Below are positions 1-5,610 of a stretch of DNA of 37,971 nucleotides, one piece after another. The notes beneath the pieces were generated by a model. That model did not search any database and was not told the origin of the DNA. It saw nothing but the letters and a program-made list of their open reading frames with translations. The stretch comes from Pseudomonadota bacterium (lineage in GTDB: Bacteria; Pseudomonadota; Alphaproteobacteria; SMXQ01): the NCBI GenBank assembly GCA_022545545.1, contig JACZQV010000005.1, positions 1 through 37,971 of the forward strand, given 5' to 3'. The position numbers and the translations under genes are program-made. Positions within the stretch are counted from its first letter, which is position 1. The number at the start of each line of letters is the position of its first letter.

Positions 1-81
1 CTTCGACACAGTGGTGATGCAGTGGGGCAAATCAAAACCCAGCTCAATATAATTCGTACCGCTCTGCTGACCGACGAAGAT

Positions 82-1041
82 CTAAGCCTGAATGCTACCA
101 CTCGGGCTACGAAGCAATCGGAAATCGATACCGCACTGGATCAGATCAACCTGTTGGCCAAAACCGATGTGAACTCCTGGACGGCGTTCATTTATGTGAG
201 AATTCATGGAGATAGCATCACTTATTTCAAAGTTCGTACCAAACCCTAGTTCACCTACATTGTACGCACATTGCGTGCGAAAGCATTCCTCAAGAAATTG
301 ACTCATTGCAGCGTCATCGCACTGGTATTTGACGGCCCGTCCTTCTTCAATCCATACAGTAGCTGGATGATCCTGAAGACGGGCATCGCGATCCGTAATC
401 GCATTGACGTTGAATGCGAAATCCGCGACGTGCACCCCAGAGATGGAAGCTGGGAATGTGGCAACTTCGCCAGCTGGAAGAATCACCACCCCGCCTGGGC
501 GCGAAGTTCCGCGATTGCTAATCCAGCGATGACGATTAGCGTCAATCGTGACTCTTAGGTCCGTACCCCCACGCGTTTTGATGGACAGCTGGTTCGCGGT
601 CATGCATCGCTCAAGAATCGCGGTATTCCGGGCTGAAAGTTCTTCGGGCAACGCGCGTAGCGCGTCAGAGAAGAGGCTAGGGCTAGCGCTGATCGCGCGA
701 AATACCGCACATCGACTCTTCTCGTACCTAGAAAGCGCGGTGGCAAGAGTTCGGGTATGCGACATTGTATCACGTTCAAAAGTCAGGACGACAAGCCGGC
801 CCGCGAACTCGGCCGGCGAGGGGAGAGCGCACGTCAGACGATCCGGAAACCCATCATCGTTTAGCGGTGCCATCCACACTCTATTGACGGGTATCTCGCG
901 CAGTTCCAGAGCGGCACATACCCAAGCTGCCGACTCATAGCTATCACTCGTATACAGCACGACGACAATGTCGTCGGCACCAATTCGAGCGTAGTTATCC
1001 AGAAGAGACTGTACGCCCTCCCAAGTCCTACTATCGATCAT
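82..1041 (-). CDS. M29-type aminopeptidase-like protein beside a repeat peptide
   Basis: The 319-residue product resembles the C-terminal catalytic half of M29 (AmpS/PepS/aminopeptidase T) metallopeptidases and their NicX-like relatives. Visible family landmarks are PAGEV (E192), GELGFGTN (E264), GVHIGFGQ (H291) and GIDF (D306), which match the positions of M29 metal ligands. The usual H before the last D is G here. No signal peptide is visible, so it is probably cytoplasmic. The start is ATG with AGGT a few bases upstream, 15 bp after the stop of the repeat-peptide gene, so the two are probably co-transcribed. GC is clearly lower than in the genes from 1.7 kb onward, which suggests acquisition. 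The N-terminal 150 residues are not recognised. Peptidase activity is inferred; it could instead be a non-peptidase M29 relative. The minus frame stays open past the stop to the window edge, but no start codon is visible there. Confidence 0.72.
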   Translation of the reverse strand: MIDSRTWEGVQSLLDNYARIGADDIVVVLYTSDSYESAAWVCAALELREIPVNRVWMAPLNDDGFPDRLTCALPSPAEFAGRLVVLTFERDTMSHTRTLATALSRYEKSRCAVFRAISASPSLFSDALRALPEELSARNTAILERCMTANQLSIKTRGGTDLRVTIDANRHRWISNRGTSRPGGVVILPAGEVATFPASISGVHVADFAFNVNAITDRDARLQDHPATVWIEEGRAVKYQCDDAAMSQFLEECFRTQCAYNVGELGFGTNFEISDAISMNSHINERRPGVHIGFGQQVDLIQCGIDFRLLRSPSGSIQA

Positions 1042-1056
1042 GCGTTACCTATGAGG

Positions 1057-1362
1057 CTATTTTTTTTCCCTCCCCCCGCGTACGATTACATCGCCCGAAG
1101 TGTCGTAGGTGATCTTCCAAGCCACGGGGCCGCCGGCCCGGTCTCCGAGGGATACAATCCTGTCTCCGAGGGCTACAATCTTGTCGCCCGAAGTGTCGTA
1201 GGTGATTTTCCAGGCAGTCTTATCTCCTATGGCGGCTAGGTCCTCAAGTTGTCCTCGAAGATCTGAAACCTTGAATCCCTCCGCCTCATGGCCTTTCATC
1301 TCCCGATAGACCGCGTTTGTTACTCTGGCAATTACCTCCTTCAGGTCCTTGTCGTCTGCCAT
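1057..1362 (-). CDS. Small repeat-containing peptide, candidate modified-peptide precursor
   Basis: This encodes a 101-residue peptide of unknown family. I chose the internal ATG at 1362 because GAGGAGC lies 7 bases upstream; the track's longer ORF adds 67 arginine-rich residues with no support. Residues 1-47 are charged and look helical. Residues 48-101 are repetitive: AWKITYDTSGDKIV (50-63) and AWKITYDTSGDVIV (81-94) flank two 7-residue units, GDKIVAL and GDRIVSL. There is no cysteine, signal peptide or membrane segment. A helical front part with a duplicated polar tail, next to a peptidase-like gene, fits the architecture of a ribosomally made peptide precursor with multiple cores. That reading is inference, and no modifying enzyme is visible because the window ends 81 bp beyond the neighbour. 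Alternatives are a repeat-containing regulatory or adaptor protein. Confidence 0.65.
   Translation of the reverse strand: MADDKDLKEVIARVTNAVYREMKGHEAEGFKVSDLRGQLEDLAAIGDKTAWKITYDTSGDKIVALGDRIVSLGDRAGGPVAWKITYDTSGDVIVRGGREKK
1081..1215 (-). repeat. Duplicated 42-bp unit plus 21-bp tandem unit inside the peptide gene
   Basis: Positions 1081-1122 and 1174-1215 are direct copies that match at about 35 of 42 bases and encode the AWKITYDTSGD repeat. Between them a 21-bp unit is repeated twice in tandem and encodes GD(K/R)IV(A/S)L. Amino acid identity is higher than DNA identity, which hints at selection on the repeat, although the sample is tiny. Confidence 0.85.
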
Positions 1363-1724
1363 GTGAAAGCTCCTCAGGTTCGATGGTTCGGAGCCGACGC
1401 GGATCCCTATACGATCAGGGCGTAAATGGCGGCGACTCACTGCACGTATTAATATACTATAATGGATAGTTCTACAACTGTTTCGTGCAAGCCCAATGCG
1501 CTGCACAGTCCGGTTTTCGCTAAGACCGGGGGTAAAGCGGCGGCAAAACTGGCGATCTACCAAGCGAAGCGGGACCGGGGGCGACGGCTGGACTCGCGCG
1601 ACATCGCCATTGCCCCTGATGGCGGCGCCTGCTAGAGCACTATCCGGCCAGATGGCCGGCCGGATGGGCGGCGCGCCCGATAGCGCGAAGGCGCGTCCGG
1701 GTTCAACGCGGGACCGAGTGGGCG
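1363..1724. other. Intergenic region between peptide gene and YqaA-like gene
   Basis: This 362-bp gap separates divergent genes. An AT-rich stretch at 1448-1477 could hold a promoter: TATAAT lies on plus at 1458-1463 with no good -35, and TTGTAG...TATATT lies on minus with a short 15-base spacer. The right half is GC-rich and contains a remnant of the MITE-like element found twice near metX. I see no supported gene in it; the plus ORF at 1496-1744 has no family resemblance. Confidence 0.5.
1633..1664. mobile_element. Remnant of the MITE-like element (ends only)
   Basis: The sequence starts with AGAGCACTATCCGGCCAG, identical over 18 bases to the left end of the element at 31035, and is followed shortly by GGCCGGCCGGAT, which resembles its other end. 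The interior is missing, so this looks like a collapsed or deleted copy. A TA dinucleotide precedes it, as at the other copies. Confidence 0.6.
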
Positions 1725-5238: not shown

Positions 5239-5294
5239 ATGAGGTTTATGGCATGAGATTTATGGCATGAGGTTTATGGCATGCGATTCATAGC
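5239..5294 (+). repeat. Four tandem 14-bp units carrying start codons and SD sequence
   Basis: The unit ATGAGGTTTATGGC occurs at 5239, 5253 (one G to A change) and 5267, and a diverged fourth copy at 5281 is the first 14 bases of the following gene. Copies 1 to 3 each encode MRFMA, and the gene itself starts MRFIA, so the array is a copy of its own start. Each unit begins with ATG. Copies 1 and 3 carry GAGG 8 bases before the next ATG. Stops of the mini-ORFs overlap the next starts as ATGA. An SD-like AAGGGAAGG lies just before copy 1. Confidence 0.9.
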
Positions 5295-5610
5295 CGGCCT
5301 TGCCGCACTGTTGCTCCTCGCCGTCTCATCGGGCGCGGGCGGGGCCGAGATGCGCCAGGACGGACAGGGGCGCTGGGTGAACGAGGCCGGCGGCAACCCC
5401 TTGGGTGATTCGAGGTTCAACCTGATGGCCGATCCGACCTTCAACCTCGGGGCCGATCCCGCCTACAACAGCGACGTCGACCCCAGATTCAACCTCCAGG
5501 CCGATCCCCTATTCAATCCGAGGGCCGATCCGAAATTCAACCCGATGGGCGATCCCGCCTTCGGCCCGGCGGGCGATGGGGGCGGCAATCAAGGCCGGTT
5601 AGGACGATAG
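5281..5610 (+). CDS. Small secreted octapeptide-repeat protein
   Basis: The 109-residue protein has a signal peptide (about residues 1-22, ending GAGGAE). The mature part holds seven consecutive 8-residue repeats at 42-97, with consensus (A/G)DPxFNxx: [48 protein letters not shown] and GDPAFGPA. It ends in a glycine-rich tail. I do not recognise the family. Regular Asp-Pro, Phe and Asn positions suggest a small repetitive fold or metal-binding surface in the periplasm or outside the cell, but this is inference. The ATG at 5281 is used because earlier ATGs in the 14-bp array hit stops within a few codons. The quinone oxidoreductase gene starts 28 bp downstream. Confidence 0.75.

Follow-up and report, generated by a model that had tools for sequence, protein, structure and literature searches.

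A small peptide gene paired with an M29-fold protein gene in Alphaproteobacteria and Myxococcota suggests a previously undescribed, gene-encoded natural product family

Does a 101-residue peptide encoded directly upstream of an M29-like gene serve as a RiPP precursor, and does the M29-like protein act on it? The question arises at the left end of the window, the whole 37,971-nucleotide stretch of alphaproteobacterial DNA analyzed here, for which a first-pass annotation had proposed a candidate undescribed peptide system. The features listed there were all present (Table 1): the small ORF with its Shine–Dalgarno sequence and charged front; AWKITYDTSGD in two copies; GD(K/R)IV(A/S)L in two copies (GDKIVAL at residues 59–65 and GDRIVSL at residues 66–72); a spacing of 15 bp up to the ATG at position 1041 of a 319-aa ORF (82–1041, minus strand); and a GC content of 0.50–0.55 here, 0.54–0.55 for the gene pair itself, versus 0.65 for the remainder of the window, that is, the chromosome to its right. 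The remark that no modifying enzyme is visible was likewise accurate, because the contig ends beside the pair. Searches of Pfam and NCBIfam left all precursors and M29-like members without a name above a cut-off, no RNA family was found at the peptide/M29 locus, and a plasmid search with the peptide as query returned no match. A known non-precursor family spanning all 101 residues, which the annotation had allowed for, did not emerge: no known family covers the peptide. Elsewhere in the window, a 109-aa ORF (5281–5610, plus strand) with a signal-peptide-like start and repeated (A/V)DPxFN units looks like a secreted repeat protein.

Table 1. Features at the left end of the window, with the evidence for each
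Feature	Position	Strand	Evidence
Candidate precursor peptide gene, 101 aa	1057..1362	-	ORF, Shine–Dalgarno sequence, synonymous-only repeat differences, same core pattern at 9 other partner-linked loci
Shine–Dalgarno sequence GAGGAG of the precursor gene	1370..1375	-	Sequence; 7 bases ahead of the ATG
Predicted leader region, residues 1–49, charged	1216..1362	-	Pairwise alignments
Predicted core copy 1, AWKITYDTSGD, residues 50–60	1183..1215	-	AWKITYDT the same in L055
Linker repeats GDKIVAL GDRIVSL, residues 59–72	1147..1188	-	Not kept in relatives
Predicted core copy 2, AWKITYDTSGD, residues 81–91	1090..1122	-	
Putative M29-fold maturation protein, homologous part, residues 1–296	152..1041	-	Candidate metal ligands E192, E264, E285 and H291
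Unrelated 3' tail of the 319-aa ORF	82..151	-	Similarity no better than shuffles
Foreign or chimeric contig-end sequence	1..151	.	Plus-strand ORF 1–249 enters the antisense of the M29 gene

The pairing was found at 10 loci in Alphaproteobacteria and Myxococcota, each with an ORF of 55–101 aa that carries a W-x-I-x-(Y/W/F)-type core and lies directly 5' of an M29-like gene, the distance from the end of the small ORF to the M29-like start being 11–166 bp in all 10 pairs. A genome-contig scan contributed L002 from Parasphingopyxis lamellibrachiae, L003 from Sorangium cellulosum So ce26, and L004 on a Myxococcus contig; whole-genome searches supplied L012, L013, L041, L042, L055, and L056, as well as L010, which holds the N-terminal part of the Myxococcus gene. 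Together, about 1,800 genomes and the one contig scan were covered, mostly from two phyla. The core reads AWKITYDT in the window (twice) and in the second alphaproteobacterial precursor (L055), AWSISYST in Parasphingopyxis (twice), and AWEITWKT in Sorangium, with MWSIWTT in L010, MWDIWST in L056, DWSINFG in L012, EWSINFG in L013, SYKISYK in L041, and AWYVAYK in L042. The first-pass annotation had suggested looking for co-occurrence of peptide and M29-like gene, and a motif-bearing ORF was indeed found upstream of 10 of 10 family genes versus 0 of 26 other M29 relatives from the same searches, a contrast that is descriptive because the motif was defined on the family. Peptide homologues lacking the M29-like gene, which the annotation regarded as a refuting case, were not found, the peptide-first search having covered plasmids only. 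The distant Myxococcota M29 matches L014–L040 were rejected as members, as they have no motif ORF upstream and do not retain the third Glu and the H-x-D ligands; many M29-like proteins in myxobacteria are of this kind. A viral scan with one of the alignments yielded no relative, and plasmids searched with the M29 protein yielded only a remote haloarchaeal aminopeptidase. The Myxococcus contig of L010 (G063:C382) ends inside the M29-like gene, the remainder of which is on another contig (L011), and its translated tail, AVSYTHSEPTRPRLTS, resembles sequencing-adapter read-through.

Selection on the core is apparent from the codons. The two window copies, of 11 codons each, differ at 3 nucleotides, all synonymous, and at 0 amino acids (P = 0.007, simulation), and the two Parasphingopyxis copies differ at 11 nucleotides and 1 amino acid, a result that none of 200,000 simulations reached; AWKITYDT of the window and of L055 differs at 4 nucleotides and 0 amino acids (simulated P = 0.0005). 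When the window and L055 peptides are aligned, their best match does not extend beyond the core and the leaders are dissimilar, whereas the corresponding M29-like proteins are 62% identical. Leaders of the window and Parasphingopyxis peptides are still alike, this being the only full-length leader likeness of the window peptide in pairwise alignments. As read from these comparisons, the pattern is that of a core held constant while the leader ahead of it evolves freely, and a short precursor with a divergent leader and a conserved core is a generic mark of RiPPs. The multi-copy cores put forward by the first-pass annotation hold for AWKITYDT, present in two copies, but not for the polar GD(K/R)IV(A/S)L repeat, which was rejected as a core, being absent from all relatives. 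AWKITYDT is very probably the part of the peptide on which the adjacent M29-fold protein acts.

The similarity of the window protein to M29 enzymes, noted at first pass, is real but weak (PF02073, E = 1e-4, 21.6 bits with a cut-off of 27); two further members scored 20.2 and 19.4 bits, and the others gave no match. In profile comparisons, the family matched M29-like proteins of myxobacteria that lack a precursor partner (hhalign E = 6e-41), and these in turn match the NicX dioxygenase (E = 6e-10) and PepS/AmpS/AmpT (E = 3.5e-5 to 2e-4). Among PDB entries, the nine-sequence family profile matched 6zsv best, which is CgnB of crocagin biosynthesis (PMC10070186); the E of 0.77 is weak alone, but the alignment falls on E, NE, H, and H-x-D, and the family and CgnB/E profiles aligned with a hhalign E of 4.3e-6 and a probability of 87%. 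The family and CgnB have the NSxxNExxxGxHxGxG block and the H-x-D pair in register, so that family E192/E264/E285/H291/H-x-D stands against CgnB E161/E252/E274/H280/H291/D293, with CgnB E161 not cleanly aligned. The dinuclear metal ligand set is intact in all full-length relatives, and its C-terminal pair is gone in the window copy. In sequence, the family is nearer to the precursor-less myxobacterial M29-like proteins than to CgnB/E, and in the tree it forms one clade (SH-aLRT 94), with CgnB/CgnE and a third relative in another (99). CgnA, CgnB, CgnC, and CgnE were taken from a genome of 11.4 Mb, where the CgnB fragment is matched at 100% identity and a small ORF ends in GNIYW. AlphaFold2 run on the Parasphingopyxis protein with four sequences reached a pLDDT of 45, and the fold assignment therefore rests on the sequence profiles. 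The term "peptidase" used at first pass survives as an assignment to the M29 fold only, because CgnB, the nearest characterized RiPP protein with that fold, is a peptide-binding maturase for which, as for CgnE, no aminopeptidase activity was detected (PMC10070186). A conserved DCCG/NCCG motif was seen near the C-terminus of the M29-fold protein in L002, L003, L011, L041, L042, L055, and L056, and is absent from L012 and L013, the two members paired with a radical SAM enzyme.

Across the loci, only the precursor and its M29-fold partner are constant, usually with one variable gene 3' of the pair, and beyond this immediate neighbor the genes look ordinary chromosomal. In L002 and L055 the gene that follows encodes a SAM methyltransferase, the two enzymes being 37% identical, and in L003, L004, and L056 it encodes an MFS transporter. 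L012 and L013 carry a relative of radical SAM/SPASM RiPP maturases at this place (TIGR04463, E = 3.3e-45, far below the equivalog cut-off), L042 an aKG-HExxH peptide hydroxylase (TIGR04267, E = 4.2e-10, 39.9 bits versus a cut-off of 40), and L041 a Gfo/Idh oxidoreductase with DUF4440. One precursor/partner pair is thus combined with five different types of neighbor, and the relatives have the adjacent peptide-modifying genes typical of RiPPs in general (radical SAM/SPASM, aKG-HExxH, and methyltransferase). The window groups in the tree with the two methyltransferase loci (support 86), which makes a methyltransferase the likely missing neighbor of its pair. The precursor role that the first-pass annotation had assigned to the peptide is borne out by these relatives, in which homologous pairs adjoin RiPP-type tailoring genes and exporters and the core is kept while leaders diverge.

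Based on these comparisons, we consider it probable that the pairs represent a RiPP family not described before, with the M29-fold protein serving to bind the precursor and to process it. The 101-aa peptide would be the RiPP precursor, with an N-terminal leader followed by two AWKITYDT cores, and the M29-fold protein would be its conserved, precursor-binding maturation partner. In the intact relatives, the dinuclear metal site may act on the W-x-I-x-Y core to process it; a lineage-specific enzyme would then tailor the product (in the closest relatives of the window, the SAM methyltransferase, putatively by methylation), and export would follow. No common oxygenase occurs across the loci, which implies that the M29-fold protein is itself responsible for the chemistry, or cleaves, or presents the peptide to a lineage-specific partner. 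A CgnB-like metal-assisted cyclization, elimination, or oxidation of the core has a nearly even chance of being its action; amino- or endo-proteolysis that frees the core is conceivable, albeit with the balance against it; and non-catalytic presentation of the peptide appears unlikely. We only tentatively entertain the bolder proposal that the M29-fold protein is the class-defining enzyme, whose metal site would crosslink or cyclize the W-x-I-x-Y core without a separate oxygenase. Were this the case, the family would form a new class of RiPPs, one whose core-forming enzyme was once an aminopeptidase.

Whether the pair still functions in the genome of the window itself depends on how its left end is read. 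The window is one entire contig of a draft genome of 196 contigs, so that base 1 is a contig end, and chimeric contig ends are common in draft assemblies. Similarity of the 319-aa protein to all relatives ends at about residue 297 (window position ~151); the last ~23 residues, D306 included, are non-homologous when the tail score is set against shuffles, whereas full-length relatives extend ~80 residues further and there carry the H-x-D pair, present in every one of them and missing from the window copy, and in most cases also the DCCG tail. The residues highlighted at first pass accordingly stand for E192, E264, and H291, to which E285 can be added, but D306 was rejected as a metal ligand because it lies within the unrelated tail. 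A frameshift of the M29 3' end was also rejected, bases 1–150 having no DNA similarity above shuffle level to the 3' ends of relatives, and bases 1–151 gave no phage or PHROG match. For the left ~150 bases, the alternatives are a chimera of the assembly and a true insertion, and with the M29 gene interrupted, the copy may be dead or simply misassembled. That an insertion disrupted the M29 gene and left a nonfunctional pseudogene pair in this genome is a serious possibility, if somewhat short of an even one: homology ends at ~151, a different open frame crosses the junction, and neither the C-terminal half of the M29 gene nor a methyltransferase homologue was found elsewhere in the assembly of this genome, but the break lies no more than 151 bases from a contig end, in an assembly of 196 contigs, and the remaining parts of both ORFs are intact. 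A pseudogene in the window is compatible with a RiPP system in the intact relatives.

Other explanations concern the family as a whole. A dedicated metallopeptidase that trims the leader of a peptide otherwise methylated or unmodified, which is the proteolytic action considered above taken as a model of its own, would release short linear AWKITYDT-type peptides (signals or metallophores). We regard it as rather unlikely: the M29 kinship is remote but real, intact members keep the M29/CgnB metal-ligand pattern, the methyltransferase and MFS lineages have no other adjacent processing enzyme, and two identical cores per precursor suit proteolytic release, yet the proteins fall below the PF02073 cut-off, a 2023 review of RiPP leader proteases makes no mention of M29 (PMC10885120), and no aminopeptidase activity was seen in the same-fold CgnB/CgnE (PMC10070186). 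It is very improbable that the peptide is a toxin–antitoxin, regulatory, or housekeeping small protein next to the M29-like gene by chance; such a protein could account for a small upstream ORF in a tight operon layout and for peptides that match no family above cut-off, but not for conservation concentrated in a short C-terminal core that two species carry twice, with divergent leaders, nor for RiPP-type maturases and exporters as partners in several loci. It is also improbable, if not to the same degree, that the loci belong to the already mined crocagin pathway family. Ligand spacing and the NSxxNExxxGxHxGxG block are common to both, the profiles of the family and CgnB/E align as noted above, and the crocagin survey describes, across ~100 genomes, single-copy CgnB/CgnE homologues that keep the metal site intact and have candidate precursors, with which the myxobacterial members may overlap (PMC10070186). 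Against this, the family forms a clade apart from CgnB/CgnE and the third relative, its core is W-x-I-x-Y and not a C-terminal xYW, and the text of the survey names no Alphaproteobacteria (PMC10070186); furthermore, a tblastn search with CgnC of the family neighborhoods and the first 12 kb of the window gave no match at E ≤ 1.

Ten pairs from two phyla thus suggest that a family of gene-encoded natural products, with a distant relationship to crocagin biosynthesis, has so far gone undescribed. CgnB and CgnE are the only M29-fold RiPP proteins that we found described in the literature searched, and in crocagin CgnB acts together with a dioxygenase, which obscures its own catalytic role. Two-gene systems of the present kind occur naturally in cultured strains (Parasphingopyxis lamellibrachiae and Sorangium cellulosum So ce26); because they share no maturation candidate other than the M29-fold protein, the function of this protein is directly testable. 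The family can also be used in genome mining for small aromatic peptides missed by current models.

Crocagin biosynthesis in Chondromyces crocatus (CgnA/CgnB/CgnE; 6zsv, 6zsu; PMC10070186) resembles the family in that the precursor gene adjoins a gene for an M29-derived dinuclear-metal protein with aligned ligand residues, the core is aromatic (Tyr/Trp), a methyltransferase is among the tailoring genes, and the hosts are myxobacterial. In crocagin, however, the core is the C-terminal IYW, whereas the family core is W-x-I-x-(Y/W/F) and sometimes doubled; there are two M29-fold copies instead of one; and CgnB is proposed to perform a metal-assisted elimination after hydroxylation by the dioxygenase CgnC (PMC10070186). 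The family neighbors are of the five types listed above, with no CgnC found among them. No carbamoyltransferase, glycosyltransferase, or SGNH protease was recognized by eye among the adjacent ORFs. In a further genome from the Sorangium family, a distant CgnB-like protein lies beside a cytochrome P450 (L053, 5599–8282), possibly a further M29-fold RiPP locus. M29 aminopeptidases (AmpS, PepS, AmpT; PF02073) are remotely homologous to the family in the central and C-terminal part and have the same metal-ligand pattern; unlike them, the family is linked to a substrate-like small peptide, and its aminopeptidase activity is only putative. The NicX-type 2,5-dihydroxypyridine 5,6-dioxygenase (7cn3) belongs to the same broader fold family through the myxobacterial M29-like intermediates, but the family profile does not match it directly and its substrate is a small aromatic compound rather than a peptide. 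Finally, the aKG-HExxH RiPPs (pfl/pos, PMC12636437) and radical SAM/SPASM RiPPs employ enzymes that two lineages of the family add to the pair; in those systems the HExxH or radical SAM enzyme defines the class, whereas here the M29-fold protein is the constant component.
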